Part shown: positions 2,316 to 23,742 of the stretch, one piece after another
Position numbering within the stretch: the stretch's first letter is position 1
Layout of the letters: each line of letters opens with the position of its first letter
NCBI RefSeq assembly: GCF_019139535.1
Contig: NZ_CP077073.1
Span: 4,864,501 to 4,928,500 of the forward strand
DNA from: Pseudomonas muyukensis
GTDB taxonomy: Bacteria; Pseudomonadota; Gammaproteobacteria; Pseudomonadales; Pseudomonadaceae
DNA: 64,000 nt
Direction of reading: 5' to 3'
The notes under the pieces: generated by a model
The model's database searches: none
Told to the model about the DNA's origin: nothing
Seen by the model: only the letters and a program-made list of their open reading frames with translations
Made by a program: the position numbers and the translations under genes

Positions 2316-2316
2316 G

Positions 2317-3198
2317 TCACTCACCCCGCTGCAGGTCGATGCCGGTGCACCAGGCGGCCTGGGCCTTGCTCGGACGGATGTCGTGCCAGCCGAGCAGTTC
2401 GACCCGGCTGACGCCGTCGATGTGCAATTGCGCGTCGATGCCCGAGCGGGCGACCTCGACGCCAAGGCGTCGACGCGGATTGACCCAAGCCTGGAGACGG
2501 CGCCGGCACTCGCTGAGGATCGCCTCGAACTCCGGACCGTTGTCGGCCATGTGCAGCACCGCCTCGACGCGGTACGGCAACACCTCGGCGCTGCGCACAT
2601 TGACCCGGTCGGCGACCGGGCGGATGTCGTCGTCGTTGAGGTAGGCGCTTACCTGCGCCAGCAGCTCGGGGCTGGCCACGCCGTCGTTGTCCAGGCTCAG
2701 CACAGTGACGTCCACCACCGCCGGCGACGGGCTTTCGGCGGTCGCGTCGGCGACCCGCCCCGAAGCGTTGCGGGCATGGAGGATGTAGCTGTTGCGTGGG
2801 CCGGCGGTGGTCAGGCCTTCATAGACCAGTTGCACGCGCTCGCGCAGGGCGTCGTCGGATTCGAGCACGGCCTCGGTCGCTGGGATCGTACTCGGGTCGG
2901 CGGCCTGGATCACCAGGCGCTGCAGGCTGACGTTGGCCGCGAGTTGGTCGAGGTCGCTGCCTTGGGCGTAGGCCAGCAGCAGCGCCTTGGCCGCGTCGTT
3001 GATGCGCGCCCGGTTGAGCAGCTTGCGGTAGGCGCCGACCTCGAGCAGCTTGGTGACCGGGTCGCTTTCCAGGTTGGCGCTCCAGGCGTCGCCCAGCTGG
3101 GCGCGAAAGCTCGCCAGGTCATCCTGGTACAGCACCTCGAAATCGAGGTCTTCGAGCAGTTGCGGGGCGGGCAGTTTCGACAGGTCGACCTGGCTCAT
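2317..3198 (-). CDS. Baseplate wedge protein J (P2 gpJ-like)
   Basis: This 293-residue protein begins MSQVDLSKLPAP and has the family features LEDLDFEVLYQDDLASF and the DPVTKLLEVGAYRKLLNRAR segment typical of P2 gpJ and the R-pyocin equivalent. It forms the wedge of a contractile-tail baseplate. ATG 3198 overlaps the gpW stop in an ATGA arrangement, so the two are translationally coupled. Nothing appears truncated. It belongs to the R-type half of the locus and has no counterpart in lambda-type tails. Confidence 0.93.
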   Translation of the reverse strand: MSQVDLSKLPAPQLLEDLDFEVLYQDDLASFRAQLGDAWSANLESDPVTKLLEVGAYRKLLNRARINDAAKALLLAYAQGSDLDQLAANVSLQRLVIQAADPSTIPATEAVLESDDALRERVQLVYEGLTTAGPRNSYILHARNASGRVADATAESPSPAVVDVTVLSLDNDGVASPELLAQVSAYLNDDDIRPVADRVNVRSAEVLPYRVEAVLHMADNGPEFEAILSECRRRLQAWVNPRRRLGVEVARSGIDAQLHIDGVSRVELLGWHDIRPSKAQAAWCTGIDLQRGE

Positions 3199-3521
3199 AC
3201 GGTCACCTCCACCAGGGCGTCGTCGCCCAGGTAGCGGCCACTCAGGGCCAGGCTGACCTGGCCGTCGAGCACGGCCAGTACCTTGACCCGCTCCAGTTGC
3301 AGGCGCGGCTCCCAGCGTCCGAGGGCGCGGGCCACTTCGGCCTGCACCGCGCTCTTCCAGCCTTCGTTGACCGGCAGGTCGACGTAGCGACGCAGTTGGC
3401 TGCCGTACTCCGGGCGCATGCGCCGGCTGCCCAGCGGGGTGGTGAGGATGTCTTCGATGGATTGACGCAAGTGGGCGACGCCCGACAAGGACTGACCGGT
3501 GCGGCGGTCCAGGCCGATCAT
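3195..3521 (-). CDS. Baseplate protein W (P2 gpW / T4 gp25-like)
   Basis: This is a 108-residue gp25-family wedge protein with a lysozyme-like fold known from the family. Diagnostic stretches are the N-terminal MIGLDRRTG and SIEDILTTPLGSRRMRPEYGS, the latter being the family signature. An AGAGG ribosome site precedes the ATG. It overlaps gpJ by 4 nt. In P2 and R-pyocins gpW follows gpV directly; here about 2 kb of fibre-cassette DNA separates them (3522-5555), so gpW has lost its usual neighbour and must be transcribed through a terminator-like hairpin at 3583. Confidence 0.93.
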   Translation of the reverse strand: MIGLDRRTGQSLSGVAHLRQSIEDILTTPLGSRRMRPEYGSQLRRYVDLPVNEGWKSAVQAEVARALGRWEPRLQLERVKVLAVLDGQVSLALSGRYLGDDALVEVTV

Positions 3522-3582
3522 TGGGCACCTCTTGTCCCATGCTCATCCAATGTGCGGATATGCATGACGTTCTCCTGATATG

Positions 3583-3605
3583 AAAAAGCCCACGGGCGTG
3601 GGCTT
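3583..3605 (-). terminator. Intrinsic terminator-like hairpin after fibre cassette
   Basis: On the minus strand a 9-bp perfect stem (AAGCCCACG / CGTGGGCTT) with a 2-nt loop is followed by a short T-run. It lies between the tail-fibre chaperone (stop at 3625) and gpW (start at 3521). It may mark the end of an inserted cassette, or reduce expression of the R baseplate genes. Confidence 0.65.
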
Positions 3606-3624
3606 GTGGTTCAACTCGACAGGG

Positions 3625-4005
3625 TCAGGACGGCAGCGCTGGCCAGTCGATCTCGGCGGGGTAGCCTGGCTGCTCGACCACACGGTTCAACGCGATGCGG
3701 TAGCGCTTCCAGGCTTGCAAGCGAGCGGTCTCGACCTCGCTGGCGTCATCCAGCTCGACGGCATCTTGCAGCGGGGCGATGGCGCTGTCGGCAAGGCTGC
3801 GCAGACGCGCGACTTCAGCCTGGGCAGCGCTGCCAGGGTCGGGCGTCAACAGCCTTTGGTAATACGCCCGGACCTCGGCTTCGCTCAGCGCAACCAGGGC
3901 GCTGTCGATATACCCATCCTGCGCGCCATCGGCCTTGAAGGCATGGATCATCGCCAGGCCATCCCATGGCTCGTCACGGTAATACTTCATGTGCGGATCA
4001 AACAT
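3625..4005 (-). CDS. Tail fibre assembly chaperone (Tfa-like)
   Basis: This 126-residue protein has the C-terminal Tfa signature: an alpha-helical stretch IAPLQDAVELDD, then LQAWKRYRIALNRV and a closing PGYPAEIDWP. Tfa proteins help trimerise or mature the fibre encoded just upstream, here the 406-residue fibre 12 nt away. A strong AGGAGG precedes ATG 4005. The same C-terminal domain recurs in the gene at 8484-9026, where it is fused to a different N-terminal domain, so this module has been reshuffled within the locus. Confidence 0.87.
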   Translation of the reverse strand: MFDPHMKYYRDEPWDGLAMIHAFKADGAQDGYIDSALVALSEAEVRAYYQRLLTPDPGSAAQAEVARLRSLADSAIAPLQDAVELDDASEVETARLQAWKRYRIALNRVVEQPGYPAEIDWPALPS

Positions 4006-4017
4006 TTCGACCTCCTG

Positions 4018-5238
4018 TCATCGCATTTCCACCCAGCTGTTGAGCGGCCCCGGGTTGTTGCCGACGAACAAACCATACGCCGCGCCCGCCGGGACAATGA
4101 TCGCGCCGGTGTCGATGTACTGGCCTGCGGCGCCGCTGTAGGACCCAGTGAGGGTGACGCCATTGACGACCCACTGCAGGTATGAGTTGACCTGGGTGGC
4201 AGGACCGACCAGTGCCTTGACCTGGATGGGCCGCCCGCTGTCGTTCACGTACGAGGTATTGAGTGCCCGGGCGGTCGCTTGCCAGCCCTGGCCCACGGTC
4301 CCCATCGGCGTGGTATTGACCCATGCCGTCCAGGCGCCACCCAGTACCCGGCGCATGGCCGTCAGTTCATTGGTGACCGACCAGGCGACCTGCACGCATT
4401 CACTGTTGGCCGCTCGCCACATGGTGCGCACCACGCCATAGGCAATGAACGCGGGTCGGTTGACCGTGGTATCGATAAACTGACAGTCCCGGTTGTATTC
4501 GAAGTTCAGGTTGCTGGAAACACTCAGCCCAGTGGTCGGTGCACACTTCTCATACCACCCCGTCCAGGTGCCATTGATCAGCATTCGCTGGTAGAGGCTG
4601 CTGTCGTTGTAGGCGGTGAACGACTGCATGGCATAACTGCCCGCCACCGAGCACACACGCAGATAACCGTTGGTATTGAACGGCAGCACGCCAAGGCTCT
4701 TGCCCTCGACGTAATAGTCACCGGTGGCGCGCAGCGCGTTGATGTCACCCTCGACCACACCTGGGGCGAAGCCGCCGACGGCGAAGTCCCCGACCTTCAA
4801 TACCCGGCCAGCGGTGGAGTCGCGGGGGGATGTGGTCAGGGCCGCGAAGGCCGCGGTGCCAAGGTCGGATGCCGCCGGGGTCGAGCGCCAAGCGCTCCAG
4901 GCCTGGGTATTGGCATTGAAGCCTCGGCTCGCCGACTTGCCCGTCATCGGATCCAGCGCGATCTGGACAATGAACCCTACGGCTGTCTGTGCGACACACA
5001 CCACTGGGTAGGTTATCCCGGGCGGAAGGTGGGCCGTCGTTCCACTCAAGGCACTGTACCAACCTGGGTTGGTCGCCTGGTTGAGGTCGGAAATATCCCG
5101 GGTAGGCGAAATGGGCGCGGTCAGCCCCATGTCGTCCATCATCTTGAAGTTGTTGTTGATCCGCATGAACGCGGTGCGCAGAACGTCACCGTCCGCGCCG
5201 CTGGGAGGGGTTCCCAGCTTGATCGAATCGAGTGGCAT
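4018..5238 (-). CDS. Tail fibre, F-type/lambdoid (406 aa)
   Basis: The N-terminus (SIKLGTPPSGADGD, then LRTAFMRINNNF) matches a motif shared by three other proteins of this locus (starts at 22499, 9639 and 6316), taken here as the tail-docking segment of flexible-tail fibres. The middle contains repeats typical of fibre shafts (NTQAWSAWRST, GTWTGWYEKC, GAWTAWVN) seen in Pseudomonas phage fibres. The C-terminus (from about residue 330) is a distinct, probably receptor-facing domain. An AGAGG site precedes ATG 5238. It sits between gpV and gpW of the R-type baseplate, an abnormal position suggesting insertion. Its chaperone follows immediately. Confidence 0.85.
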   Translation of the reverse strand: MPLDSIKLGTPPSGADGDVLRTAFMRINNNFKMMDDMGLTAPISPTRDISDLNQATNPGWYSALSGTTAHLPPGITYPVVCVAQTAVGFIVQIALDPMTGKSASRGFNANTQAWSAWRSTPAASDLGTAAFAALTTSPRDSTAGRVLKVGDFAVGGFAPGVVEGDINALRATGDYYVEGKSLGVLPFNTNGYLRVCSVAGSYAMQSFTAYNDSSLYQRMLINGTWTGWYEKCAPTTGLSVSSNLNFEYNRDCQFIDTTVNRPAFIAYGVVRTMWRAANSECVQVAWSVTNELTAMRRVLGGAWTAWVNTTPMGTVGQGWQATARALNTSYVNDSGRPIQVKALVGPATQVNSYLQWVVNGVTLTGSYSGAAGQYIDTGAIIVPAGAAYGLFVGNNPGPLNSWVEMR

Positions 5239-5246
5239 ATGACCTC

Positions 5247-5555
5247 TTAGTATCCTTTTACGTCCAGAACCAATCCCTTGGTGCAGGCCACAACCGAGCC
5301 CTGGTTACAGCCCAATCCTGGCCCTGCGAAGACGATGATGAGTGTGTTGGCACGCCCAGCCCAGGGGGTCGAAGGCGATGATCGGTTGGCGGCCCGGTGC
5401 TACTGCCGAGCGTGCCTTTGGCCACCAGGCACAGATTCTGGCAACTGCCGTCAACCTGGAGCGTGGCCTTGTCGTTCAGGACCTGTAGCCCTGCGGGCAT
5501 CAGTACACGGCATAGAGGATGCCTGGCTGTACCACCCCGCCAGTCTGGCCAGCGG
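5247..5555 (-). pseudogene. Decayed tip-accessory cassette (third copy)
   Basis: This 309-base gap between gpV and the 406-aa fibre is not random. Directly after gpV a frame reads GVVQPGILYAVY then stop, like the end of the 111-aa gene at 10403 (VEIIYGVF). Overlapping that stop, ATG 5500 opens LQVLNDKATLQVDG and LCLVAKGTL, which parallels the start of the 225-aa gene at 10403 (GLEVFAEGNHIQLTG). After frame changes the last readable frame ends LVLDVKGY at 5247, like the 225-aa protein's end (IIASVSGY). So the ends of both genes survive in the original order with the middle lost. It is too broken to encode a product. Confidence 0.6.
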
Positions 5556-6113
5556 TCAATGCTTGTGATTGGCGGTGTTGCCGGCGGTGTCGATGATCCG
5601 CCCGCCGCCATTGATGTCGCCGCTGACCAACAGCGGGCCGTTGACCGTGACCTTGCCGGTCAGGGTGATGGCACTGGCCTCAAGGCTGATCGCATCGTCG
5701 CTGACCAACAGGGTGCTGGCGCCGACCTGGACACGCGCGTTGCCCGTGGGCAGCTGGATGTCATAGCGCCCGGCCTGCCAGTCATAGCTCAGCGAACCGC
5801 CGTCGGCGAAACGCCAGACTTCCACATGATCGCGGTCATCCGGTGCGCTGCCGGCATCGCCATACAGGCCAGGCACGAAAGTACCTTGTGCCGGCTCGCC
5901 GCTGGGGCTGATCAGCACACCCTGCTCGCCCAGGCTCGGTGCCCGCCAGTGGCGGGCCTTGCCGGCGGCCTGGCCATGCCAGCGCACCCAGGCGCTGGTC
6001 CAGTCGCCGTCGCTTACCCGCACCCGTGCCGCGGCCAGGTCCACCGCCACCACCGAGCAGGGAATCACCAGGCACGCCAGCATGCGGTCGTGCATCGCCG
6101 TGGCGTAGCTCAT
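5556..6113 (-). CDS. Baseplate spike protein V (P2 gpV-like)
   Basis: This 185-residue protein has an N-terminal OB-fold-like region ([34 protein letters not shown]) and a C-terminal beta-helix rich in V/T/G that ends NHKH. The HxH at the tip is the iron-binding motif of P2-type membrane-piercing spikes. ATG 6113 is embedded in the stop of the upstream 68-aa chimeric ORF (ATGA). The first 32 codons are duplicated at 7960, where the copy is truncated. This intact copy is therefore the functional gpV, now separated from its usual upstream partner (7957-8454) by about 1.8 kb. Confidence 0.92.
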
Positions 6114-6195
6114 GTCAGGTCCTCCGGCGGCCAATAGGCTCGATGCGTGCCGGGAGCGAGCCCCATCATCAAGCTGCCAGGCGGCTGGTCGGGCG
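6018..6195. repeat. Direct repeat, copy A (gpV start and upstream gene end)
   Basis: Positions 6018-6139 match 7865-7986 at a constant offset of 1847 bp, with about 7 mismatches in 122 bases counted by eye. Similarity continues more weakly, with a small indel, to about 6195. The repeat spans the first 32 codons of gpV and the last codons of the gene before it. Confidence 0.9.
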
Positions 6196-6316
6196 CGGTG
6201 CCGACCCCGACATACAACTTAGTGAAATGCTCGTTTGCCTGGGTGAAGGCAGTGCGAACGTCATCACCATCCGAGCCATCAGCTGTCGTGCGCCTATTTA
6301 TATTTTTACGCGCCAT
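6110..6316 (-). CDS. Chimeric 68-aa ORF: fibre N-terminus joined to tail of the pre-gpV protein
   Basis: The first about 39 residues ([19 protein letters not shown], then [12 protein letters not shown]) match the docking motif of the fibres at 5238, 9639 and 22499. The last about 28 ([11 protein letters not shown] ... [10 protein letters not shown]) match the C-terminus of the 165-aa protein at 7957-8454 ([11 protein letters not shown] ... QAYWAPEDLA). The junction is the edge of the direct repeat. A good AGGAGG lies before ATG 6316 and the stop overlaps the gpV start, so it probably still drives translational coupling into gpV. Whether the peptide itself functions is unknown; it has no receptor-binding domain. 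Confidence 0.7.
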
Positions 6317-6438
6317 GGGGCCTCCTATCCTAGTACCCGGCAACGTCAATAATTCTGATGGACGGGACTGTAAAGCAAAACAGTCAGATGGAGAGATCCC
6401 CCACTGGCCAACAAAACATTGCCGCACTCAAACCTCTA

Positions 6439-6732
6439 TCAGAACGTCATAAATAACAGGGTAATCGCAACAAGATCCTCACCTTGGCTGTACTCAACCA
6501 TTCCAGTCGACCGATTGTAATATGCCCAAGCATTTGAAACTTCCGACTCAACTACAGGTCGATTGGACACAGTCGTGACAAGGCGTCGATCGTTTGCGAT
6601 ATCAGGATAAGGCCAAGCAACCCTGCCAGCCCAACCACTGACGTTCACAGCACCCAGAACACGCGTCAGATTATCCGTCACACTGTTTCGAACAGTACCA
6701 TCAGCATTAAAAACCTCTAACCCAATCATCAT
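6439..6732 (-). CDS. Putative tail-tip accessory protein (97 aa), alternative version
   Basis: The opening (GLEVFNADGTVRN, then LTRVLGAVNVSG) parallels the 111-aa protein encoded right after gpJ at 10738 (GLQTWNEDASPN, LGTLLGSVVTG), so the two are probably distant homologues. The function of this family is unknown to me; its place after the tip protein in flexible-tail loci suggests a tip accessory or adhesin component. The start overlaps the stop of the 231-aa gene upstream. Base composition is clearly poorer in GC than the flanks, which suggests a different donor. Confidence 0.6.
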   Translation of the reverse strand: MMIGLEVFNADGTVRNSVTDNLTRVLGAVNVSGWAGRVAWPYPDIANDRRLVTTVSNRPVVESEVSNAWAYYNRSTGMVEYSQGEDLVAITLLFMTF

Positions 6733-7424
6733 GAACGCTCATAATTCAGGGGAACATTCGACACATCAACCAACAAAAAATTTTGATAAACCGTCCCCCA
6801 GTAACCCGTTGGTTCTGCTCCAGGGGCATCGTTGACATAATTCACTGTGTACCCCTTGAAGTCCAAGCCACTCCAGTAGGTTCGGCCATATGAAAGTTCA
6901 ACATCGACACCGTCCACATCCACCATGTACCCACCAGCAACGCAACAAGCAGCCACATTCAAATGCGGGGCACGGTAGATAACATCGACAATCGATGGTG
7001 GATCACGCGTATCGACGTAGTCGATGACACGCAATGGGATATCATAAGCGCTGTAAACCAGCACAGACTGGCCATTGAACACCTGCATGCCAAATCGATC
7101 AGACAATGACGGGCTTACCAAATCGTAAATATAATACTGAAAGGTAACCGTCTGGTTGGCGGGGTAAAAGAAGTTACATACTTTACGTCCACCTCGGTAT
7201 GAACCAGGGCCAAGGCACACGCCGGGGTAAGGAGCACGTACAGCCATAATTGCATTTGGCGTGGTGCGTGCCCACACACTCTGAAGAGACGACCACCACA
7301 GATCCTGCTGGGTAGTTGATAAATTCGCCGTAAACTGCCCGGACTTTATCAACACCATGTTTCGGTAATTTTCGTCAACCTGAACAACATTTGAATCATT
7401 ATATACAGCGATACCTGCCGTCAC
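6729..7424 (-). CDS. Putative tail-tip accessory protein (231 aa), alternative version
   Basis: The start is taken as GTG 7424, which has GGAGG seven bases upstream; a longer reading to 7457 has no ribosome site. The protein starts VTAGIAVYNDSN and has a middle segment (TVTFQYYIYD ... GMQVFNGQSVLVYSAY, LRVIDYV) that parallels the 225-aa protein at 9726-10403 (VITIYVFAKAP ... GLQSYSASGELLYDSS, LRIAYAG). It therefore looks like a diverged homologue. It overlaps the end of the gpJ remnant upstream. It is AT-richer than its neighbours. Role in the particle is inferred from position only. Confidence 0.6.
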   Translation of the reverse strand: MTAGIAVYNDSNVVQVDENYRNMVLIKSGQFTANLSTTQQDLWWSSLQSVWARTTPNAIMAVRAPYPGVCLGPGSYRGGRKVCNFFYPANQTVTFQYYIYDLVSPSLSDRFGMQVFNGQSVLVYSAYDIPLRVIDYVDTRDPPSIVDVIYRAPHLNVAACCVAGGYMVDVDGVDVELSYGRTYWSGLDFKGYTVNYVNDAPGAEPTGYWGTVYQNFLLVDVSNVPLNYERS

Positions 7425-7835
7425 TACCACCCTCCATTCTAATGCGCAACACGCCATTTACATCATCGCTGTGCATAAGCTGATGGGTGATGCAGGTACG
7501 CCCTTGACCTGGGCGTATGCCATCCACCTCAAACTCACTTGTCATGAGCCTCATGCGAATACCATGCTGCCTCTGGATATAATTTGAATGCTTCCCTTCA
7601 CCGGTGATGATCAATTTGATGATGCCTGCCTGGTTTATGATCACGCGGCTCATGAACACCTGGCCGTTGTTAACGGCGAACACGGACTTCGGCGCCCTAT
7701 CGGGTTGATGCGTGACGGAGAACAGGTTGACCAGGAATACAACCATCCACTGCATACCTTCTGGCGTGTTCTCTACCCCGATCCTATCCCGGCGCGGTAG
7801 TGCACGCCGTTCGCATCTACACCGACTTTAATATT
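7399..7835 (-). pseudogene. C-terminal remnant of a second gpJ (tip) gene, frameshifted
   Basis: From 7835 a frame reads IKVGVDANGVHYRAGIG, like residues 1310-1330 of the intact gpJ (VKMEVTNDGQYVAAGVSLG). One frame change near 7780 leads into VENTPEGMQ, then APKSVFAVNNGQVFM, SEFEVDG, GQGR and VLRIRM, matching gpJ's FSVSNGQVFM, GAFEING, GQGR and TLRVRM. It is thus the last about 140 codons of a lambda-J-type tip protein without its body. The C-terminus of J sets receptor specificity in lambda. No start or ribosome site drives it convincingly, so I call it a remnant or silent donor. Confidence 0.7.
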
Positions 7836-7960
7836 CCTGGTCGCGGACTAGTTGTCCTCAAGGTCCGCACCCGCGCCGCAGCCAGGTCCACCGTCACCAC
7901 CGAGCAGGGAATCACCAGGCACGCCAGCATGCGGTCATGCATCGCCGTGGCGTAGCTCAT
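7817..7960 (-). pseudogene. Truncated gpV copy (47 codons)
   Basis: ATG 7960 overlaps the upstream gene's stop, as expected for the original gpV position. The first 32 residues match intact gpV with one change (VVTVDL for VVAVDL), then the frame runs into unrelated sequence (TLRTTSPRPGILKSV) and stops. This is the original gpV start, cut by the insertion at about 7864. Confidence 0.85.
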
Positions 7961-8053
7961 GCCAGGTCCTCCGGCGCCCAATAGGCCTGCTGCTTGCCCG
8001 GGCCGGTATCTGGATCGAGCCCCAGCATCAGGCTGCCGGGCGGCTGATCGGGC
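7865..8053. repeat. Direct repeat, copy B
   Basis: This is the partner of 6018-6195, in the same orientation and 1847 bp away. It lies at the ancestral junction between the 165-aa gene and gpV. Recombination between the copies would remove the low-GC insert and rebuild an uninterrupted gpV. Confidence 0.9.
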
Positions 8054-8454
8054 CAGTCCCAGCGCGGCTCGCCAAACAGGATTGGCTGTTCCCAGCGCAC
8101 CTTCCAGCCGGGGCCGTCGTACTGCGCCTGGACATTGCGGCAGGCTTCGACGAAATCCAGCCCCCACAGTTGCTGACGCAGCAGGTCCATCAGCTGCGCG
8201 GCCAGCTCGCTGCCCTGCAACCGCGCCTCGGGCTGGGCTGGGTCCGGGGTGATGTCGGCCTCGAAGGTGGCGAGCAGTACCGAACGACCGTCGCGCGGCG
8301 CACCGTCGGCGGTCATGCGCAAGATGCCGTGGCGCAATGCGGGCAGCGCGGGCGAAATGTCGGCGTGGTCCTGACTGTCGACCGAGGCCAGCGCCGGTAT
8401 CGCTTCGCGCACCCTGGCCGTCAGCGTCGCGGTGAGTGTGGAGAGTTCGCTCAT
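7957..8454 (-). CDS. Conserved phage protein upstream of gpV (R-tailocin type, 165 aa)
   Basis: ATG 8454 has a GAGGAAT ribosome site. The protein begins MSELSTLTATLTARVREAIP, contains a beta-rich middle (SVLLATFEADITPDP) and the segment LRQQLWGLDFVEACRN, and ends in a proline/glycine-rich tail ([11 protein letters not shown]). A gene of this kind stands just before gpV in R-pyocin clusters, where it is usually annotated as hypothetical; I do not know its function. Its stop overlaps a gpV start (7960), but that gpV copy is now truncated. Its C-terminal codons are duplicated at 6110. Confidence 0.75.
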   Translation of the reverse strand: MSELSTLTATLTARVREAIPALASVDSQDHADISPALPALRHGILRMTADGAPRDGRSVLLATFEADITPDPAQPEARLQGSELAAQLMDLLRQQLWGLDFVEACRNVQAQYDGPGWKVRWEQPILFGEPRWDWPDQPPGSLMLGLDPDTGPGKQQAYWAPEDLA

Positions 8455-8483
8455 GGGCGATTCCTCATGCAGGCAAGCGGCGA

Positions 8484-9026
8484 TCATTGCGGTGCGGATG
8501 GCCACTCGAGGGTTTCAGGAAAACCGTCCTGGTCGGGCAGGCGGTTGAGCGCCACGCGGTAGCGCTTCCAGGCCCTGAGGTTGTCCAGTTCCTGAGCGCT
8601 GGCCTCCTCCAGGTCAACCGCATCCTGCAGCGGGGCAATGACCTGGTCGGCCTGGGCGCGCCGCCTGGCGATCTCGCCCAGGGCGGCGGCCAGCGGGTCG
8701 GGACGGGGCTCGGGCAGCGGTTCGGGCGGCAGCGGCTCGACGGCCACGTGCAAGGTCAGGCTGTGCTGCAGGTCGACCGCGACACCGTCGCGGCTGATGC
8801 TGATTTCCAGCGTTGGCGCGACATGCCGGATGCGCACCTCGACCCCTGCATCCAGCGGGTTGATGACATACCCCCAGCCTTCCGGTGGCGGCGCCATACC
8901 CAGGGTGCCTTGCACCCGGTACTCACCGATGCCCGCCTTGTGGCTGCTGATCGCGTTGCGCCCCAGCGAGGTCACGTCGATGACTTCGCCGGTCGGCCCA
9001 TTGAGGTTGATTGCGGCTCGGGTCAT
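8484..9026 (-). CDS. Fibre-associated protein fused to Tfa-like chaperone domain (180 aa)
   Basis: Residues 1-95 (LNGPTGEVIDVTS ... EYRVQGTLGMAPPPEGWGY ... LTLHVAV) match the separate 112-aa protein at 21507-21845 (TGSLGLVPFPPTSVGWGY, LMLHVLV). After a proline-rich linker (LPPEPLPEPRPDP), residues 120-180 carry the Tfa signature IAPLQDAVDLEE, LRAWKRYRVALNRL, TLEWP, almost the same as in the Tfa at 3625. It follows the 203-aa fibre by 1 nt and probably serves as its assembly factor. The fusion shows that fibre-cassette domains are exchanged as units here. Confidence 0.8.
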   Translation of the reverse strand: MTRAAINLNGPTGEVIDVTSLGRNAISSHKAGIGEYRVQGTLGMAPPPEGWGYVINPLDAGVEVRIRHVAPTLEISISRDGVAVDLQHSLTLHVAVEPLPPEPLPEPRPDPLAAALGEIARRRAQADQVIAPLQDAVDLEEASAQELDNLRAWKRYRVALNRLPDQDGFPETLEWPSAPQ

Positions 9027-9027
9027 A

Positions 9028-9639
9028 TCAGATCGCCTTGAGGGTGCCGTCGGCGGCACGGGTGGTGTTGCCGGTGTGGTAGATAACGTTGAAGGTGGCC
9101 GTGGCGAAGCTGCCCGAACGCAGCACCAGGCGAGCTTCGGGAGACTGTCCGAAGAACAGCTGCGCGCCGCGGAACTCGGTCTCGCTGTAGGGCACCGTGA
9201 GCACCGAGCCATAGCCGATGCCCGTGGCCCCGACGTACTGGGTGTTCGGCGTGATCAGGGAAAATCCGCCTTCCATGCGGTTGATCGAATCGCTGTAGGG
9301 CGACGACTTGCCGCCGACCCCGAACGCCCCGACCTCCAGCACGTTGCCTGCCGCCAGCCCAACGTTGCGCGTCGCGGCAGTCCCCAGGCCCAATGCTGCG
9401 CGAGCCTCGACGGCGCTCTTGCCGCCAGTGCCGCCCTGGGCGAGGGTCAGGGGTGTGACAAGCCCGGTCAGCGCCTTGATGTCGGCGTTGTTGCCTGCCG
9501 CAGCCTTGCTGGTCTGCAGGTTGGCGTCGGCTTGATAGAGTTCGTCGAAATTGGCGACGGCCTTGACCCAGGCGGAGCGCTGGGTGTCGCCGCCGGCACC
9601 GCCGGGTGCGGTGCCGAGGTTGATGGTCTGTTTGGCCAT
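9028..9639 (-). CDS. Short tail fibre, F-type (203 aa)
   Basis: ATG 9639 has GGAG seven bases upstream. The N-terminus (QTINLGTAPGGAGGD, VKAVANFDELY) is the docking motif shared with the other fibres. A central LTLAQGGTGG plus ALGLGTAAT stretch is typical of phage fibre shafts. The C-terminus (VIYHTGNTTRAADGTLKAI) ends like the 217-aa fibre at 21846 (DGTIKVA). It lies after the tip-accessory genes and before its putative assembly protein, the usual place for side-fibre genes of flexible-tail tailocins. Confidence 0.83.
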   Translation of the reverse strand: MAKQTINLGTAPGGAGGDTQRSAWVKAVANFDELYQADANLQTSKAAAGNNADIKALTGLVTPLTLAQGGTGGKSAVEARAALGLGTAATRNVGLAAGNVLEVGAFGVGGKSSPYSDSINRMEGGFSLITPNTQYVGATGIGYGSVLTVPYSETEFRGAQLFFGQSPEARLVLRSGSFATATFNVIYHTGNTTRAADGTLKAI

Positions 9640-9661
9640 GTGTATCTCCATGCTGGGCCGT

Positions 9662-9682
9662 GCGCCAGCCGCTGGCTGGCGC
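9662..9682. other. Perfect hairpin before the 203-aa fibre
   Basis: GCGCCAGCC and GGCTGGCGC form a 9-bp stem with a 3-nt loop in the 86-base gap between the 225-aa gene and the fibre. No T-run follows on either strand, so termination is doubtful; it may affect mRNA stability. Confidence 0.45.
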
Positions 9683-9725
9683 TACGGGAGGGTGGAAGGT
9701 TGCCGCGCAGGCACGAGCGCCATCG

Positions 9726-10403
9726 TCAGTAACCGGAAACGCTCGCGATGATCAGCGGCGCCACGGGGCCGGGCTCAGGGTCAGGCATGCTGGCATTGGG
9801 CTCGAGGAACATTTCGTCGGACCAGTTCCTGTCCTCGATAACCGCCAGGCGCCGCCCCAGGCTGACCCTGCCGTGGTCGACACGGATCATGTCGCGCTGG
9901 ACAAAGGTCGTGGTGTGAAAGGGGGGCACCAGGTAATAGCGGCGGTAGTAAGCCAGCCCGGCGGCATAGGTGTTGCCAGGTACCACCGGGAAATCCATCC
10001 CGGCCTTGCTCACCGGCCCGGCATAGGCGATGCGCAAGGTCTTGTGGCTGGAGTCATACAGCAGCTCACCACTCGCCGAGTAACTCTGCAGCCCCCACTG
10101 GCTGGGCATGATCGGCGCCTTGGCAAACACGTAGATGGTGATGACCGTGGGGTTGAAGCAGGCGAACCGAACCACATCCTTGTGCCCCAGCCCGTACTCC
10201 ACCGAGATGTACTGGCCCTGGGTATCCCCCAGCAACAGCACGCCGTGGGCGGGCAAGGTCACATCGGCGCCGGCCATCAGCGAGCGGTTGAACGGATCGA
10301 ACCCCTCGACCAGCGCGATGGTGCGCTTGTGTACCAGGCTGAGCACCGGGTTATTGCCCGTCAGTTGAATGTGATTGCCCTCGGCAAAGACTTCCAGGCC
10401 CAT
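9726..10403 (-). CDS. Putative tail-tip accessory protein (225 aa)
   Basis: I do not recognise a named family. The protein is beta-rich (GLEVFAEGNHIQLTG, VITIYVFAKAP, GLQSYSASGELLYDSS) and ends in a proline-rich segment followed by PLIIASVSGY. Its TGATG start overlaps the previous gene's stop by one base, so it is co-translated with the 111-aa gene after gpJ. Diverged or decayed relatives lie at 6729-7424 and 5247-5500. The linkage to gpJ suggests a tip-exposed component, perhaps a receptor-binding adhesin. No signal peptide or membrane segment is visible. Confidence 0.72.
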   Translation of the reverse strand: MGLEVFAEGNHIQLTGNNPVLSLVHKRTIALVEGFDPFNRSLMAGADVTLPAHGVLLLGDTQGQYISVEYGLGHKDVVRFACFNPTVITIYVFAKAPIMPSQWGLQSYSASGELLYDSSHKTLRIAYAGPVSKAGMDFPVVPGNTYAAGLAYYRRYYLVPPFHTTTFVQRDMIRVDHGRVSLGRRLAVIEDRNWSDEMFLEPNASMPDPEPGPVAPLIIASVSGY

Positions 10404-10738
10404 CAGAACACCCCATAGATGATTTCTACCGAGACGCTGTAGCCGTACTGGGCATAGGCGCCGGTGTAGCGAAACGCCGGGAAGCTCCAGCTGAGCGTTT
10501 GCCCTTGCAGCTTGACCACCGGATAGATCAGCTCGTAGGGCAGCTGATAGTTCGGAGGTCGCGACGGCAACGCGTCAGGGTGAAAGAAGTAGAACGGCTC
10601 GCCACGCATCAGCTCAGGCACGATCAGGCTGCCTGCGCGGGTCCCGGTCACCACCGAGCCGAGCAGGGTGCCCAGGCGGTTGCTGGTATCCAGGTTCGGG
10701 CTCGCGTCTTCATTCCAGGTTTGCAAACCGAGCTTCAT
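10403..10738 (-). CDS. Putative tail-tip accessory protein (111 aa)
   Basis: This small protein starts three bases after the gpJ stop and overlaps the 225-aa gene. It opens KLGLQTWNEDASPN, LGTLLGSVVTG and ends YGYSVSVEIIYGVF. The pattern matches the 97-aa protein at 6439 and the ghost at about 5500-5550. Function is unknown; tight coupling to gpJ indicates a role at the tail tip. In the alternative cassette at 6439-7424 the two accessory genes occur in the opposite order. Confidence 0.7.
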   Translation of the reverse strand: MKLGLQTWNEDASPNLDTSNRLGTLLGSVVTGTRAGSLIVPELMRGEPFYFFHPDALPSRPPNYQLPYELIYPVVKLQGQTLSWSFPAFRYTGAYAQYGYSVSVEIIYGVF

Positions 10739-10741
10739 CCA

Positions 10742-13700
10742 TCACCCCCAGATGCCCATGCGCACACGCAAGGTGTTGTTGGCGTCGAAGATCTGGATCA
10801 GTTGGTTGGTGATCACCAGGCGCCCCTGGCCATCCACCGAGCCGTTGATCTCGAACGCGCCGCTCTTGTCCAAACGCCATCCGGTGCGGCCGGGCACATA
10901 GTTGTTCGACTGGATCACATTGCCGATCTTGGCACTGCTGATGGCGCCGTCCTGGATCAACGCGGAGTTCATGAACACCTGGCCGTTGCTCACCGAAAAT
11001 GGCGTGAACAGCTTGCCGCCCGCCTGGGTGCCGACCACCGAGAACCTGTCGGCGCGCACCAGGAACTGGCTCTGCTTGTCCTCGATGCCCAAGGACACCC
11101 CCGCCGCCACGTACTGACCGTCGTTGGTCACCTCCATCTTCACCGACCACATCGTCGACAACTTCTTGTCGAGCCCGGCTTGTACCTGGCTGATCTGCTG
11201 CACCGAGGCGTTGGTCTGGCCTTGCTGCACCTGTACGGTGTCCAGCTTGCGCGCCATGGCCAGGCCATCCTCGATGCGCGCCGACTGCTCGGACCACACG
11301 CCGACGAAGGTCTGGCTGGAACCGGCCAGGTCTGCGTTGCTGCCGGCCAAGCCTGGGTTGACCTGGGCATAGATGCCATCCAGGCGCGTGCCCTGGGCGG
11401 TGACCTTGCCGTCGAGCTGGGTCGCCTGGGTCTGCAGGGTGCTGATGGCCTTGGCCTGGCCGGCCGCCTGGCCCGCCACATCGCCGACGCGGCTGGTGAG
11501 GTCGGTGATCGACGACCCCTGGGCGACCAGCGTTTGCCCCTGTTGGCTGACCGTCGCGCCCAGCTCGCTGATGGCGCTGGCGTTGGCATTGTCGGCCTGG
11601 GTGACCCGCCGGGCGACGATGTTGCACCACAGCGAGCGGCCGCTACCGTTGGCCGGCTCGGTGCGCACGAGGATACGCCCCTTGACCGCGCCAGCCGGAG
11701 CCTTGACCCGCCCGCCAAGCTTGCGAAAACCCTGGGCAGTGGCGGCCGGGAAGCTGAAGGCAGCCAGATAGCCCAGGTTCTTGTTGTCCTTGTCATAGAA
11801 CTGCATCTGCAATTGCGCGGTCTGGCCGCTGGCCATTTCATCGGCACTGACCTCGGCTGCGAGGTCGAACTGCTCGTCCGAGCTGCAGAGGATATTGTTG
11901 CCCGTGCCACAGAAGCTGTTGCCATAGAAGGCGATGGCCTTGCCATAGCGGGTACCGCCCAGGTTCGCCGGCACCACCACCGCAGGCGCCGGATACAGCT
12001 TGGCGTCGAAGGTCCAGGGCTGGCTGTCGCCGTCCTCGAAATCGCCCTTGATCACCAGGTTGTCCGGTTGCTGGCCCAGCGCGGCCTTGAGGCCGGTAAT
12101 CGCCGAAGCCTGGCTGTCGAGCTTGCCCTGGGCCTCGCTGACCTTGTTGCTCAGGCTGGTCACGGCAGCAGCATCGGCCTTGCCCGACAACGCGCTCTGC
12201 AACCCGGTGAGCTGGGTGTTCTGCACCGTGTTGACGCCCTCGGCGGCGGTGATCTGGCTTTCCGCCTTGCTCATCCGTGCCGCCAGGCCGTTGCTGTCCT
12301 TGACCACCTGGCCCACATCCAGCCAGTAACCGGCATTGGGCGGCGGCGTCTTGACCGGCACCGCCTTGAGTGCCTGGTACAGGCCCTGGGCCTGACGTAC
12401 CAGATCGCCGAGGGCATAGGCCTTGGCCGGGTCGTAGCTCAATGCGTTGGCGGCGCGGGCGACATCGTCCAGGCGCGACTGCACATCGCTGTTCAGGCTT
12501 TGCAGGCGCTGGTTCACCGAGCCATTGCCGGCGCCGTCGATCAGCTCGATACGGTCGAACAGGTGCTTGCCCAGGGCCGACTCGCTGATCTTGCCGGAAA
12601 AGTAGCGGTCATAATCGCTCTGTTCGGCACTCGATTGGCCGCGTACGCCGATGCCGTCCGGGTACCATTTGCCGACGTTGCCACTGCGGTCCACCAGGCG
12701 TGCCCAGAAGAACAGTTGCGCACCGGCGGCCAGGCCCTGAAGCTCATGCTCGGCCTGCGGGTAGGCAAAGTCGCCGAGCTTCTTGGCATCGACGCGGTTG
12801 GCGCTGGTGCCATACCAGATTTCCGTGCGCTGGGTATCGCCTGTGCCCTCGGGGAATTGCCAGCTCAGGCCGATGGCGAACACCTTGCTGGAGGCCAGTA
12901 GCTGGGCCACCGCCGCAGGCGTGCCGAGCTTGCCCTTGAGTGGGGTCAGTTCGGACAGTTTCCAGATCGAGGTGATCTCGCCGACGCTGATCGAGCGCAC
13001 CCGTGCCAGGTAGTCGCCGGCATAGATCCCGGTGACGTCGACGCTGGTGGCACCGCTGCGCGGCAGGCTGATCCAGTTGCCATCGTCCTTGCGCCACTCC
13101 ACTTCATAGGCCACCGCGCCCGCCACGGCTGGCCAGGTGATGGTCAAGGTGCTGACCGCCAGGCCTTGGCTGACGGCATGGTTGCTGCTGAGGCTGACAC
13201 TGGCCGGTGGTGGCACCAGGTTGATCGGCGTGACGCTGACAGGCCGTTCTTCCAGGCGGGCACCGCTGTCGATATGGGCGAACTTGCTCGGCTCGTACTG
13301 CACCGCGCTGATCTCGTACACCCCAGGCTCGGGGCGCGACACGCTGGTCACCCGGTACAGCGGCACGCTCAGGTCCGGCGCGTCCAGCGCCCAGACCAGC
13401 TCCGCCTCGGGGGCGACGCTGTAGGCAGTGGTCAGGGTCAGGCGACGGCCCGCGACCGTCTCTACCGTACGCGCCTCGCAGGTGCCGTCGGGCAGGTTGA
13501 GGATCAGCCGATCCCCCACCTTCGCCTGGGTATCGCGGTCGAGGGTGACCTGACGGCCGCTGGCCGCGGCAATCCGACCACCGATGGCACGCCCGGCCAA
13601 CAGCTCGTCGGCCACCGGAATGACGAAGCCGGGCAACGGGATGCGCCCGTCCATGCCAACCCGGAAACTGATGCCCCGGTCACGGGCGTTGGTCGCCAAC

Positions 13701-15079
13701 GCCCACTTGCCACGGCGCTGCGCCTCGGATTCGCGGGTACAGCCGATGGCGCTGATTTCCAGTGGGTTATCGCCATAACGGCGCTGCAACTTCTCGTCGG
13801 TGACCACCGTGACGTCGGTGTCATAGCTGTTCAGCGGGTTGTCGTAGCTGATCAGGGCGCGGCTGTAGCGGCTGCGCTCCGAGCCACTGGAATAGCTGAA
13901 CTTGCCGCCGATGACATTGGCACGGGTATAGGCGAAGTCGAAATCGGTGGCCCGTGGCATGTCCGCCAGGCTGTACAACTGCCCCTGTGCCCAGTAGGTC
14001 ATGCCGCGGTAGATCCCGGCGATGTCGCGCAACAGCGACCAGGCCTCGGCCTTGCTCTGCAGGTTGAGGTTGCAGATGAAACGCGCTTCCTGGCCGCCCT
14101 TGCCGTCGGGGACCAACTGGTCGCAGTACTGGGCGATCCGGTACAGCTCCCACTTGTCGACCATCCATGGCTTGATCCGGCGGCCCAGGCCGAAGCGGTC
14201 GTTGGTGCAGATACCGTAGGTGACCCAGGCCGGGTTGTCGGTCCAGGCTTCCTTGAAGGTACCGTCCCACACGCCGATATAGGCGCGGGTGTCCGGGTCG
14301 TAGTTGCTCGGCACCGGCCACTTGCGGCCTCGGCACTCCACGGTCACGGCAGGAATGTTGCGGAACTGCTCGGCGGAGAACTCGATGTACAGCAACGCGG
14401 TGTTGGGGTAACGCAGCTTGGCGTCGATCACCTCGGTCAGGCCGGCGAGCTGCATGGTGTCGGCGACCTTGTTGTTGTTCTGGTTCGGCGTCAGCCTGCG
14501 CACGCGCAGGGTCCAGCCGCTCGCGGCCTTGGGCAGGTCGATGCGTCGGGTACGCTCGTAGGTGCTGGTGGTCTTGCCGTGTACCGCGTCCTTGAGCACT
14601 TGCTGGTAGGCGCCGCCGTCGGTGGCGACTTCGACGACATACTCGATGCGATGACCGTTGATGTTGCCGGCGCTGTCCATGGCCTGCAGCGCCGGCCAGG
14701 CGAAGCGCAGGCGCACCGCCGACAGGCGGGTGTCACTGATGGCATGCACCCAGGGCTTGTCGCTGCGTAGCTCGATACCCTGGCTGATCTCGTTGTCCAC
14801 CGACGGGATGCCCGGGATATGCGGCTGCTCGACCGAACCGGTGCGCCACTCCCACTTGACGCCTGGGAAGTTGTAGTTGCCCTGGTCGTCCATCAACGGC
14901 GTGCCGTCGAGGTAGATGTCACGGGCGCTCGGCGTGCCGGCGAATTCTCCCTCGCCAATCGCCAGCAGCATCTTGGCTACCGCGATGGAACGCAGGCTGT
15001 CCGGCGCCTCGACCGGCGTCTTGGGCTTCTTCTGACCACCTTTGCGACCGATGATCACAGGTCTGTTGGTTTCGCCCAT
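10742..15079 (-). CDS. Tail tip / host-specificity protein J (lambda gpJ-like)
   Basis: At 1445 residues this is the largest protein of the locus. It has the lambda-J plan: an N-terminal hub region (from MGETNRPVIIGRKGG), a phage-tail-3-like region at about 330-490, a fibronectin-III-like domain at about 620-710 (LTITWPAVAGAVAYEVEWRK), a long helical/coiled stretch at about 860-1020 and 1190-1300, and a DUF1983-like C-terminal region from about 1305 (SVKMEVTNDGQYVAAGVSLG). J forms the central tip of flexible tails and its C-terminus binds the receptor. GGAGG precedes ATG 15079. A terminator-like hairpin lies just upstream. A second, frameshifted J C-terminus occurs at 7399-7835. Confidence 0.95.
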   Translation of the reverse strand: MGETNRPVIIGRKGGQKKPKTPVEAPDSLRSIAVAKMLLAIGEGEFAGTPSARDIYLDGTPLMDDQGNYNFPGVKWEWRTGSVEQPHIPGIPSVDNEISQGIELRSDKPWVHAISDTRLSAVRLRFAWPALQAMDSAGNINGHRIEYVVEVATDGGAYQQVLKDAVHGKTTSTYERTRRIDLPKAASGWTLRVRRLTPNQNNNKVADTMQLAGLTEVIDAKLRYPNTALLYIEFSAEQFRNIPAVTVECRGRKWPVPSNYDPDTRAYIGVWDGTFKEAWTDNPAWVTYGICTNDRFGLGRRIKPWMVDKWELYRIAQYCDQLVPDGKGGQEARFICNLNLQSKAEAWSLLRDIAGIYRGMTYWAQGQLYSLADMPRATDFDFAYTRANVIGGKFSYSSGSERSRYSRALISYDNPLNSYDTDVTVVTDEKLQRRYGDNPLEISAIGCTRESEAQRRGKWALATNARDRGISFRVGMDGRIPLPGFVIPVADELLAGRAIGGRIAAASGRQVTLDRDTQAKVGDRLILNLPDGTCEARTVETVAGRRLTLTTAYSVAPEAELVWALDAPDLSVPLYRVTSVSRPEPGVYEISAVQYEPSKFAHIDSGARLEERPVSVTPINLVPPPASVSLSSNHAVSQGLAVSTLTITWPAVAGAVAYEVEWRKDDGNWISLPRSGATSVDVTGIYAGDYLARVRSISVGEITSIWKLSELTPLKGKLGTPAAVAQLLASSKVFAIGLSWQFPEGTGDTQRTEIWYGTSANRVDAKKLGDFAYPQAEHELQGLAAGAQLFFWARLVDRSGNVGKWYPDGIGVRGQSSAEQSDYDRYFSGKISESALGKHLFDRIELIDGAGNGSVNQRLQSLNSDVQSRLDDVARAANALSYDPAKAYALGDLVRQAQGLYQALKAVPVKTPPPNAGYWLDVGQVVKDSNGLAARMSKAESQITAAEGVNTVQNTQLTGLQSALSGKADAAAVTSLSNKVSEAQGKLDSQASAITGLKAALGQQPDNLVIKGDFEDGDSQPWTFDAKLYPAPAVVVPANLGGTRYGKAIAFYGNSFCGTGNNILCSSDEQFDLAAEVSADEMASGQTAQLQMQFYDKDNKNLGYLAAFSFPAATAQGFRKLGGRVKAPAGAVKGRILVRTEPANGSGRSLWCNIVARRVTQADNANASAISELGATVSQQGQTLVAQGSSITDLTSRVGDVAGQAAGQAKAISTLQTQATQLDGKVTAQGTRLDGIYAQVNPGLAGSNADLAGSSQTFVGVWSEQSARIEDGLAMARKLDTVQVQQGQTNASVQQISQVQAGLDKKLSTMWSVKMEVTNDGQYVAAGVSLGIEDKQSQFLVRADRFSVVGTQAGGKLFTPFSVSNGQVFMNSALIQDGAISSAKIGNVIQSNNYVPGRTGWRLDKSGAFEINGSVDGQGRLVITNQLIQIFDANNTLRVRMGIWG

Positions 15080-15095
15080 GTGTTCCTCCAGGCGT

Positions 15096-15119
15096 AAAAA
15101 AACCGCCTCCGAGGCGGTT
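15096..15119 (-). terminator. Intrinsic terminator between gpI and gpJ
   Basis: The minus strand reads AACCGCCTCGGAGGCGGTT followed by six T residues, a clear rho-independent signal. It sits 17 bases before the gpJ start and after the second gpI gene, inside what should be one morphogenetic operon. gpJ must therefore be expressed by read-through, antitermination or its own promoter. Confidence 0.82.
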
Positions 15120-15183
15120 GGCTGAATGGGGCCGGGGATGCAGGCCGGCTATGGCCCTGTACCTGGCGTTGGGTCCAGGGCGG

Positions 15184-15798: not shown

Positions 15799-15862
15799 TG
15801 CAACTCCTTGTGCGTAAGACGGCTGCCCAGGGCAGCCGCATTGACCAGGTGGCACCCCACCC

Positions 15863-18372: not shown

Positions 18373-19638
18373 TCAGCGACCGTGAATGGCCGACCAGATC
18401 TGCCCGCCGGGCATCAGCTCACGAGAGATCTGTTCGCTGGCGCCCTGGCGGGCGGCACCGGCATAGGCATTGGCCAGGCGCTGGGCATTGCCATCGCCCG
18501 CAGCGGCATTGCCGTCGCCGGCGGCCACGTTGATAGTCTGCTGGATGACCACTTCGCTGCTGTGGCTGGCAGCACCACCGCCACCGAGTGCGCGAACGCC
18601 CAAGGCACCGTCGGCGCCGCGGGTCAGCGGCATGATCGCCTCGGGGCCGGCTTCGCCGAACAGCGCCATCGGCGCCAGGGTCGGCGTGCTCGCGACGCCG
18701 TTGGTGAAGGCGCCCCCCTTGGCGAAGGCGGAGCCGCCATAGGAAATACCCGAAGCGTTGATCTGCGGGGTGAAGGTGGTGGTGCTACCACCCACGGTCA
18801 TGCTGCTGGCAGCTGGCGTGGCCCCCCCGCTGAACCACGAGCCAACCAGGTTCATGCCGAACCCGAGCAAGCTGCTCAGCGCCTTGGAGGCGGCGGTCTT
18901 GGCAGCCAGCGCGGCCATGTCGGCGATCACCGACTTGGCGAAGTCGGAGAACGACAGCTTGCCGGTGGTGGCAAAGGTCTGCACCGCCGTGCCCATGCGC
19001 TCGAAGACACTGGCAAAGACGGCTTGCGACTGCGCCGCGACGTTGCTGGAAGTCTCCAGGTACTCCTCCCAGGCTGCGGACGCGCCGACCATCCAGTCGC
19101 CGCGCGCCTGGCTCATCATGTCGTAGTCGTTGAGCACCTGGTTGGTCATGTCGGCATGCCGGCTGCGCATGTCCTCCAGCTGCTGCTGGTAACTGGCGCC
19201 ATCGGGGCCTGCGGCGCCCAACGGGTTGGCCTGTTCGAACTGGGCCCGTTCGGCGTAGTAGCCTTCGTCCACCTTGAACAGCTGGTCAGCCAGCCCGCCC
19301 TGGCGCTTGCTCATGCTCATCTTCGCCACTTCCAGCTCGGCACTGGCGTGTTGCTTGCGCAACGCCTCGCCATAAGGCCGCTCGGGGGCGTCCTGCACGG
19401 CCTGCTGCCAGCTCGGCGGCGTGTAGGCGGACTGGAAGCGATCCAACGCCTTCCTCGAGATATCCAGGCTCGAGTCGGCGACGGCGCCCACACTCTTGAG
19501 GTACTTCTGGTTGAAAGCCTCGACGTTCTTCTGCATCTCGCGCAGGGTGCGGTCACTGAGGGCCGAAGCCCTGGACAGTGCCCGTTCGAGGCTGGAGAGG
19601 TCGATCGTCGGGCTGAAACTGGCAAGGTTGGTTGCCAT
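18373..19638 (-). CDS. Tape measure protein, short (lambda gpH-like, 421 aa)
   Basis: The N-terminal half is helical (SLERALSRASALSDRTLREM, QQLEDMRSRHADM), followed by a lambda-H-type C-terminal region at about 195-280 (SNVAAQSQAVFASVFERMG, FAKSVIADMAALAAKTA) with a hydrophobic stretch (ALSSLLGFGMNLVGSWF), then a glycine-rich domain and a C-terminal segment. Tape measures set tail length at roughly 1.5 angstrom per residue; 421 residues predict a tail of about 60-65 nm, less than half of lambda. The N-terminus is complete (ATG 19638), and no frameshift or second fragment was seen upstream. Confidence 0.9.
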   Translation of the reverse strand: MATNLASFSPTIDLSSLERALSRASALSDRTLREMQKNVEAFNQKYLKSVGAVADSSLDISRKALDRFQSAYTPPSWQQAVQDAPERPYGEALRKQHASAELEVAKMSMSKRQGGLADQLFKVDEGYYAERAQFEQANPLGAAGPDGASYQQQLEDMRSRHADMTNQVLNDYDMMSQARGDWMVGASAAWEEYLETSSNVAAQSQAVFASVFERMGTAVQTFATTGKLSFSDFAKSVIADMAALAAKTAASKALSSLLGFGMNLVGSWFSGGATPAASSMTVGGSTTTFTPQINASGISYGGSAFAKGGAFTNGVASTPTLAPMALFGEAGPEAIMPLTRGADGALGVRALGGGGAASHSSEVVIQQTINVAAGDGNAAAGDGNAQRLANAYAGAARQGASEQISRELMPGGQIWSAIHGR

Positions 19639-23706: not shown

Positions 23707-23742
23707 AGCGTGCATAATGCAACCCCGACGGACTAAATGCAA
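23701..23742 (-). promoter_or_regulatory. Repressor promoter with TTGCAT-N10-ATGCAA operator
   Basis: TTGCAT (23737-23742) and CATTAT (23714-23719) are 17 bases apart. The inverted repeat TTGCAT-N10-ATGCAA at 23701-23722 covers the -10 box and the start codon, as expected for autorepression. If this promoter is used, the transcript begins at or near the start codon (leaderless or nearly so), which fits the absence of a ribosome site. Confidence 0.5.

Follow-up and report, generated by a model that had tools for sequence, protein, structure and literature searches.

A layered array of tail-tip and fibre cassettes in an apparently composite tailocin cluster of Pseudomonas muyukensis

We describe here a tailocin locus of Pseudomonas muyukensis in which modules for the tail tip and its fibres are stacked one behind the other. 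The locus lies in a 64-kb stretch of a single-contig genome of 5.53 Mb (contig NZ_CP077073.1, positions 4,864,501 to 4,928,500); this whole stretch is called the window below, and coordinates refer to it unless another contig is named. The layered arrangement is real and can be read in mechanistic terms. From sequence comparison, we consider it probable that this is a composite tailocin cluster and that its non-contractile (F-type) tip has been re-equipped more than once, by tandem layering of cassettes and by recombination between the arms that the layers share. The worn older cassette beside the one in use, together with sister stacks that carry other cassettes, suggests how tailocins may exchange their targeting parts. 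According to the available text of a 2024 review, the mechanism of precise exchange of receptor-binding parts in tailocins has not been identified (PMC12090994). The loci compared here seem to hold intermediates (a second J, a V stub, shared arms and a mosaic J end), so that the route of exchange becomes readable and testable. They also suggest that exchange in an F-type tailocin involves the end of J and the tip protein pair as well as the fibre.

Read from J, the central tail-tip protein, the order is layer 1 (cassette Z), layer 2 (cassette X), intact V, slot D and W. Layer 1 occupies the in-use position and comprises J, tip proteins A and B, fibre F and a Tfa chaperone, followed by a complete g1072 and a stub of 32 V codons. 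Layer 2 comprises a frame-broken J end, tip B, tip A and a fibre N-terminus that runs into a second g1072 end. Slot D, between V and W, holds an eroded tip pair, the intact fibre R and a Tfa. The other places where cassettes may lie are named slot A (between I and J), slot C (between g1072 and V) and slot E (ahead of the holin). The features of the array are as follows.

10742..15079, minus strand: J, central tail-tip protein, intact, cassette Z (phrog_31, central tail fiber J)
10403..10738, minus strand: tip protein A, cassette Z (phrog_2427, 1.5e-20)
9726..10403, minus strand: tip protein B, cassette Z (phrog_4062, 6.5e-9)
9028..9639, minus strand: fibre F, cassette Z (phrog_1836, 1.8e-19)
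8484..9026, minus strand: Tfa chaperone, cassette Z (PF02413, 2.7e-15)
7957..8457, minus strand: g1072, complete, first gene of the contractile-tail part (phrog_1072, 5.5e-37)
7865..7960, minus strand: V stub, the first 32 V codons, fused to the J end (sequence; D1 repeat, 92%; junction shared with locus L147)
7399..7864, minus strand: C-terminal relic of J, layer 2, frame broken (PF09327, Phage_Tail_Tip, 7e-8; breakpoint near 7589)
6729..7424, minus strand: tip protein B, cassette X, open frame (phrog_4062, 1.2e-21; 93% to L147)
6439..6732, minus strand: tip protein A, cassette X, open frame (phrog_2427, 1.3e-6; 89% to L147)
6194..6316, minus strand: fibre N-terminus, cassette X, body lost (the intact X fibre of L147 agrees at 30 of 45 residues)
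6110..6193, minus strand: second copy of g1072, last part only (D1 repeat)
5556..6113, minus strand: V, baseplate spike protein, intact (PF04717, PF21930)
5247..5555, minus strand: eroded third tip pair, slot D (three blocks at 78-86% to the intact pairs of genomes G109 and G169)
4018..5238, minus strand: fibre R, intact, slot D (phrog_18794, 3.6e-146)
3625..4005, minus strand: Tfa, slot D (PF02413, 4e-15)
3195..3521, minus strand: W, contractile-tail baseplate (phrog_43, 4e-38)
2317..3195, minus strand: baseplate J of the contractile tail (phrog_6, phrog_4226)

A preliminary description of the stretch had placed fibre N-termini at 22499, 9639, 6316 and 5238, and all four were found within a few bases of these points; they have a common N-terminal pattern, with 13-17 of 45 residues identical between pairs, figures that have no shuffled control behind them. 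The same description had called the tip pair at 10738-9726 intact, the pair at 7424-6439 diverged and the pair at 5555-5247 decayed. Matches to phrog_2427 and phrog_4062 bear out the first. Both frames of the second are open and still reach their families (phrog_4062 E=1e-21, phrog_2427 E=1e-6), so that its description as diverged is correct, and the third survives as pieces of a pair that is intact in two relatives. The J C-termini at 10742 (intact) and 7399 (a broken copy with a stop and indels when aligned to an intact relative) and the Tfa domains at 3625 and 8484 were likewise recovered. Two features had been overlooked: the flanking V, W, J and I are genes of a contractile tail and the tips and J ends those of a lambda-like one, and the array contains a direct repeat.

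This repeat, D1, joins positions 6018-6154 and 7865-8001, which are 92% identical over 137 nucleotides (nt). It is a second copy of the g1072 end and the V start, so that block X stands between duplicated stretches. Exact matches between the layers reach 42 nt; in 200 mononucleotide shuffles, the longest match averaged 12 nt and never exceeded 16 nt.

Sister loci carry related stacks. In L147 (also L138; IMG/VR 3300027606_000033, 18 kb), cassette X is in the in-use position, as judged from its place behind an open J frame. That frame stays open from the edge of the contig up to its stop and is followed by X tip B (93%), tip A (89%), a 658-residue fibre and a Tfa. Next come a g1072 without its middle, a V stub, a J end, a different tip pair (Y) and a Tfa end, and farther down a second g1072 without its middle, an intact V, fibre R (90%), Tfa and W. 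The junction of V stub and J end falls at the identical point in L147 and in the window, with 89.7% identity over 321 nt. In L227 (IMG/VR 2791355555), Z stands in front, followed by a complete g1072, six codons of V start and a scrap of J; the displaced cassette is Y, whose tip pair is followed by a fibre N-terminus running into a g1072 end and by an intact V. L228, from the same metagenome as L147, shows Z, a complete g1072, a V stub, the I-J spacer and the start of a second J. This start is 93.9% identical to the first J of the same contig over 927 nt, and the two are therefore different copies. Since L147 has no complete g1072, a copy farther upstream is expected, as in L228; the two loci, on two unjoined contigs, may be neighbours that together form three layers, Z, X and Y. 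The displaced J end of L147 carries an insertion of about 150 nt (L147:6172-6326) with inverted ends (GGCTCTGTACGAAAAG and its complement), which resembles a small non-autonomous element.

The layers share arms on both sides. In L147, the X and Y layers agree over 797 nt at 89.5% on the Tfa-g1072-V side and over 134 nt at 89.6% plus 256 nt at 82% on the J side, and a comparison of their middles found no match. The window has a right arm of 188 nt at 85% and a left arm of 34 nt at 88%; the one arm found in L227 is a right arm of 133 nt. The J relic of the window reads as a mosaic of these layers. Among 68 sites that distinguish X from Y, those to the left of about 7589 are 20 Y-like and 8 X-like, and those to the right 3 Y-like and 37 X-like, a split that none of 20,000 permutations equalled.

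These observations are consistent with the following history. The unit of J, tip pair, fibre, Tfa, g1072 and V would have been duplicated in tandem, the new unit being placed ahead of the older one. After each round the front copy would supply J, fibre and g1072 and the rear copy V, and the older J, fibre, Tfa and g1072 would erode, leaving a displaced orphan cassette. The duplicated ends (the J C-terminus on one side; the Tfa end, g1072 end and V start on the other) could then act as arms for homologous recombination, presumably of the RecA type, by which layers would be lost or re-filled. Such a process might give Z in front with X displaced, as in the window, and elsewhere X in the in-use position or Y displaced. 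The order of these events and the source of the donor DNA are what we infer from the loci at hand.

The slots vary from locus to locus. We compared nine other composite loci (G169 and L075 are counted as a single strain, GD03858). In all eight of these loci that cover W and baseplate J, identity is 94-95% for the former and 92-96% for the latter; the contractile-tail I is 76-97% identical. The Z tips A and B are 95-97% identical in four of the nine, 63-77% in two and unmatched in three. Slot C is empty in G109, GD03858, GD04091, COR5, G189 and M28. Slot A holds tip pairs in L227 and L077 and fibre-type genes in G189 and M28 (L229). The tip pair of slot D is intact in G109 and G169 and eroded in the window, L147, L227 and L077, with differing breakpoints; elsewhere this slot holds another fibre and Tfa (COR5 and M28) or nothing (G189). 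In P. entomophila COR5 (L360, G126), an intact free-standing tip pair lies in reversed orientation between a repressor-like gene and mutS (contig positions 137598-138550).

Two points call for caution. The X and Y J ends differ more on their right side, so that the strength of the mosaic rests on the skew to the left of the breakpoint and on the shared junction. The other point, and the main doubt about calling displaced copies silent, is that the displaced X tips do not appear to be under relaxed selection. Ratios of non-synonymous to synonymous substitution (dN/dS; simple Nei-Gojobori pairs) are 0.07 for tip B and 0.20 for tip A in displaced X and 0.08 and 0.11 in Y. In-use Z tips give 0.04-0.12 (tip B 0.04-0.07 over 10 pairs), the tips of slot D 0.12 and 0.20 and those of slot A 0.11 and 0.10; fibre R gives 0.08-0.18 over 15 pairs. 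Of the replacements in X tip B, 4 fall on the window branch, 8 on that of L147 and 6 are unresolved; for Y tip B the figures are 9 (L147), 11 (L227) and 11 unresolved. Against the P. putida relative P0011, replacements in Y tip B stand at 30 to 21 (L147) and 30 to 20 (L227), and the Y copies may evolve somewhat faster than that relative. The X tips would accordingly have been displaced recently or still be used. The preliminary description had proposed that modules were added repeatedly and left behind as silent or scrap copies. This is partly supported: the repeated addition agrees with the layers, the shared arms and the mosaic, and the silence is in doubt given the constraint on the X tips.

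These same figures give some weight to a tentative alternative, in which the additional tip pairs and fibres still serve the particle. The F-type tail would bear several alternative tips and fibres together on a single docking motif, and the loss would be confined to the J end and fibre body that had become redundant. The displaced X and Y pairs have open frames at dN/dS of 0.07-0.20, and the window copy shows no excess of replacements. Moreover, tip pairs without a J end do exist, between I and J in L227 and L077 and beside mutS in COR5, and fibres F, R and 3 (the last in slot E) are intact and have their N-terminal pattern in common. It is harder to reconcile with continued use that the slot D pair is eroded in four of the six loci with that slot type, that the X fibre is truncated after its N-terminus, and that the slot D Tfa is less constrained in its two closest comparisons with the window (dN/dS 0.37 and 0.49, as compared with 0.13-0.31 in the other 13 pairs).

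If layering and arm recombination did shape the locus, one may speculate, although we regard it as doubtful, that the stack is a working archive. RecA-driven recombination between the arms would re-load the J tip with an older cassette, the SOS response, which also induces tailocins, would make such re-loading likelier, and populations would hold several loaded forms.

It is unlikely that one fragment of a phage tail (J end, tips and fibre start) was inserted illegitimately into V, with no layering. The nearest phage relative found, Pseudomonas phage vB_PpS_SYP, does carry a tip B homologue (49%) directly downstream of a large tail protein gene, and the G+C content of block X (0.50) is lower than that of the Z cassette (0.65). 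However, X is likewise AT-rich in L147 (0.467 in the 1-kb bin 2000-3000), where it is in the in-use position, and an insertion leaves unexplained the duplicated g1072 end and V start, the L147 junction, the second J of L228 and the presence of Y in the same slot in two loci. This explanation was rejected on account of the duplicated ends and the junctions in sister loci. Fibre switching by an invertase, on the model of carotovoricin and with the relic as the inactive partner, is most improbable: multi-fibre tailocins with inversion are known from the available texts (PMC13280938, PMC13195805), but the layers here are in direct orientation and none of the five inverted pairs of at least 25 nt in positions 1-27000 (75-84% matches) joins two cassettes, and it was rejected for want of inverted repeats around alternative cassettes. 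Although an assembler may be misled by repeats of 137 nt, an artefact in the window genome is hardly credible and was also rejected, as the genome is one contig and the junction recurs at 89.7% in an independent metagenome contig.

Among known systems, the nearest in logic to the layering proposed here are the orphan cdiA-CT/cdiI and rhs-CT modules, which the available text describes as displaced 3' cassettes that lie downstream of the gene in use (Poole et al. 2011, PMC3150448). Like X, these orphans keep a piece of the conserved upstream gene and are in use in other strains, and recombination after tandem duplication was proposed for their rearrangement (PMC3150448). Our array shares the retained piece (the J end in the window and in L147, the J scrap in L227) and the use in another strain (X in L147). 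It differs in that the unit is a tail tip and fibre, that there is no immunity logic and that the repeats include downstream baseplate genes; no toxin C-terminus with an immunity gene was found, the cassettes matching only tip, fibre and chaperone families. We therefore regard it as an array that probably works like the CdiA-CT/Rhs orphans, and not as one of them. Xenorhabdicin loci resemble the window as tailocin loci with extra fibre and Tfa genes: as far as the available text goes, they contain up to 13 such genes and undergo inversion, and the extras are believed to swap with the main fibre and are linked to the killing profile (PMC13280938). In contrast to the window, with its direct orientation, F-type tip, J ends and tip proteins, xenorhabdicin is described there as R-type, with extra fibres that lack a docking N-terminus and are exchanged by inversion. 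The carotovoricin of Pectobacterium offers another likeness, since its fibre cassettes are exchanged across species by homologous recombination via conserved flanks; yet the available text describes replacement without displaced older cassettes, and the strings 'silent', 'duplicat' and 'pseudogen' are absent from the main text (PMC13195805). The mutS-cinA region of Pseudomonas is known as a recombination hotspot with R- and F-type tailocin clusters; the reports share the site with the window, but layered J/tip cassettes and a V duplication are not described in their available text (PMC7815802, PMC2647930). Our search of a collection of open-access papers turned up no account of a tailocin with displaced J/tip layers, and nothing on silent fibre cassettes or on receptor-binding accessory genes of F-type tailocins.

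The locus lies at this tailocin site, between mutS and cinA/recA. The left border (cinA and recA) is outside the window and was found in the same genome (locus L003). The repressor, the lambda-like tail and the contractile tail, which lie between mutS and cinA, are all on the minus strand. Features of the locus outside the array are given below.

23919..26504, plus strand: mutS, right border of the locus (Pfam MutS domains)
22969..23709, minus strand: CI/PrtR-like repressor (phrog_4, E=2e-48)
21846..22499, minus strand: fibre 3, docking N-terminus, slot E, ahead of the holin (N-terminal pattern)
18373..19638, minus strand: tape measure, F-type, lambda-like, 421 amino acids (phrog_16384, 4e-152; phrog_24)

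The lambda-like part has the genes of a non-contractile tail (major tail protein, chaperone, the 421-residue tape measure, minor tail proteins and J). The contractile (R-type) part contains V, W, J, I, fibre, sheath, tube, tape measure and hub, with GPD among the genes present. The gene letters J, K, L, I and V follow what we take to be lambda and P2 usage. The lambda-like module sits inside the contractile tail cluster. No capsid, packaging or integrase genes were found among the subset of locus open reading frames scanned, apart from weak head-family matches within J (3e-4) and fibre R (0.07).

A tape measure of 421 residues would predict a short F-type tail; it is matched end to end in all eight other composite loci that include it. 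Fibre 3 is 93-94% identical in four of the six other composite loci with a full-length match and 66-68% in the remaining two. Two copies of the tail assembly gene I stand in tandem (window 15184-16343, about 50% protein identity). This gene is also doubled in G109, GD03858, COR5, GD04091, L227 and L228, and there is one I match in G189 and M28. The I-J spacer (window 15085-15125) contains a terminator-like hairpin and then a T run directly ahead of J, and a copy of this spacer precedes the second J of L228. The hairpin could tune J expression.

The tip protein families have no assigned function, except that a weaker match of Z tip B is to a family labelled membrane associated protein. From the gene order, the tip proteins probably act at the tail tip, and tip pairs and fibres presumably set the target range. 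Predicted folds are beta-rich and of middling confidence (mean predicted local distance difference test, pLDDT, 72.6 for tip B and 72.7 for tip A). A fold search with tip B gave 22 matches of 458 at E<=0.001, to unnamed or mostly uncharacterised phage proteins. Fold comparison with the PDB gave no convincing match (best E=0.12 for tip B and 0.32 for tip A), and a sequence search of the PDB returned one weak match for tip B (E=0.25) and none for tip A.

V is widespread in the genus, with matches in 171 of 398 sampled genomes (E<=1e-10). We retrieved the 40 best V loci outside the window genome, five of them short owing to contig ends. A lambda-like module lies ahead of V in four (G109, G169, G189 and G126); in G307, a diverged lambda-like tail lies farther upstream, before its holin, and the remaining 35 gave no match to the lambda-like module. 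J is matched in 133 of 397 genomes (E<=1e-100); among the matches listed, it is full-length at 90-95% in G109, G169 and G126 and partial in G189 (77% over residues 1-927) and G185 (77% over 1-571, where the contig ends). When genome contigs were scanned for J, 54 loci emerged, three of them at 90-95% (GD03858, P. entomophila COR5 and GD04091). Among viral contigs, taking the best 80 of 278 V loci and the best 80 of 403 J loci, 5 of these 160 contain both parts, from three contigs; L228 is on a further contig, which ends within the second J. The tip B family occurs in at least 37 of 398 genomes (E<=1e-6), a lower bound as no more than seven candidates were scored in each genome. The window genome, G109, G126 and G169 (the last on two contigs) have two copies at this tailocin locus, and in G085, G115 and G263 the two copies are on separate contigs or far apart. 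A third tip-B-like match in the window genome lies in a stretch without any match to a module query at E<=1e-3. The X form of tip B is matched in 8 of 398 genus genomes including its own, the best other at 33%, and elsewhere in seven proteins of a large protein set and one locus among viral contigs. Fibre R is restricted, among the 194 relatives searched, to the window genome and G109.

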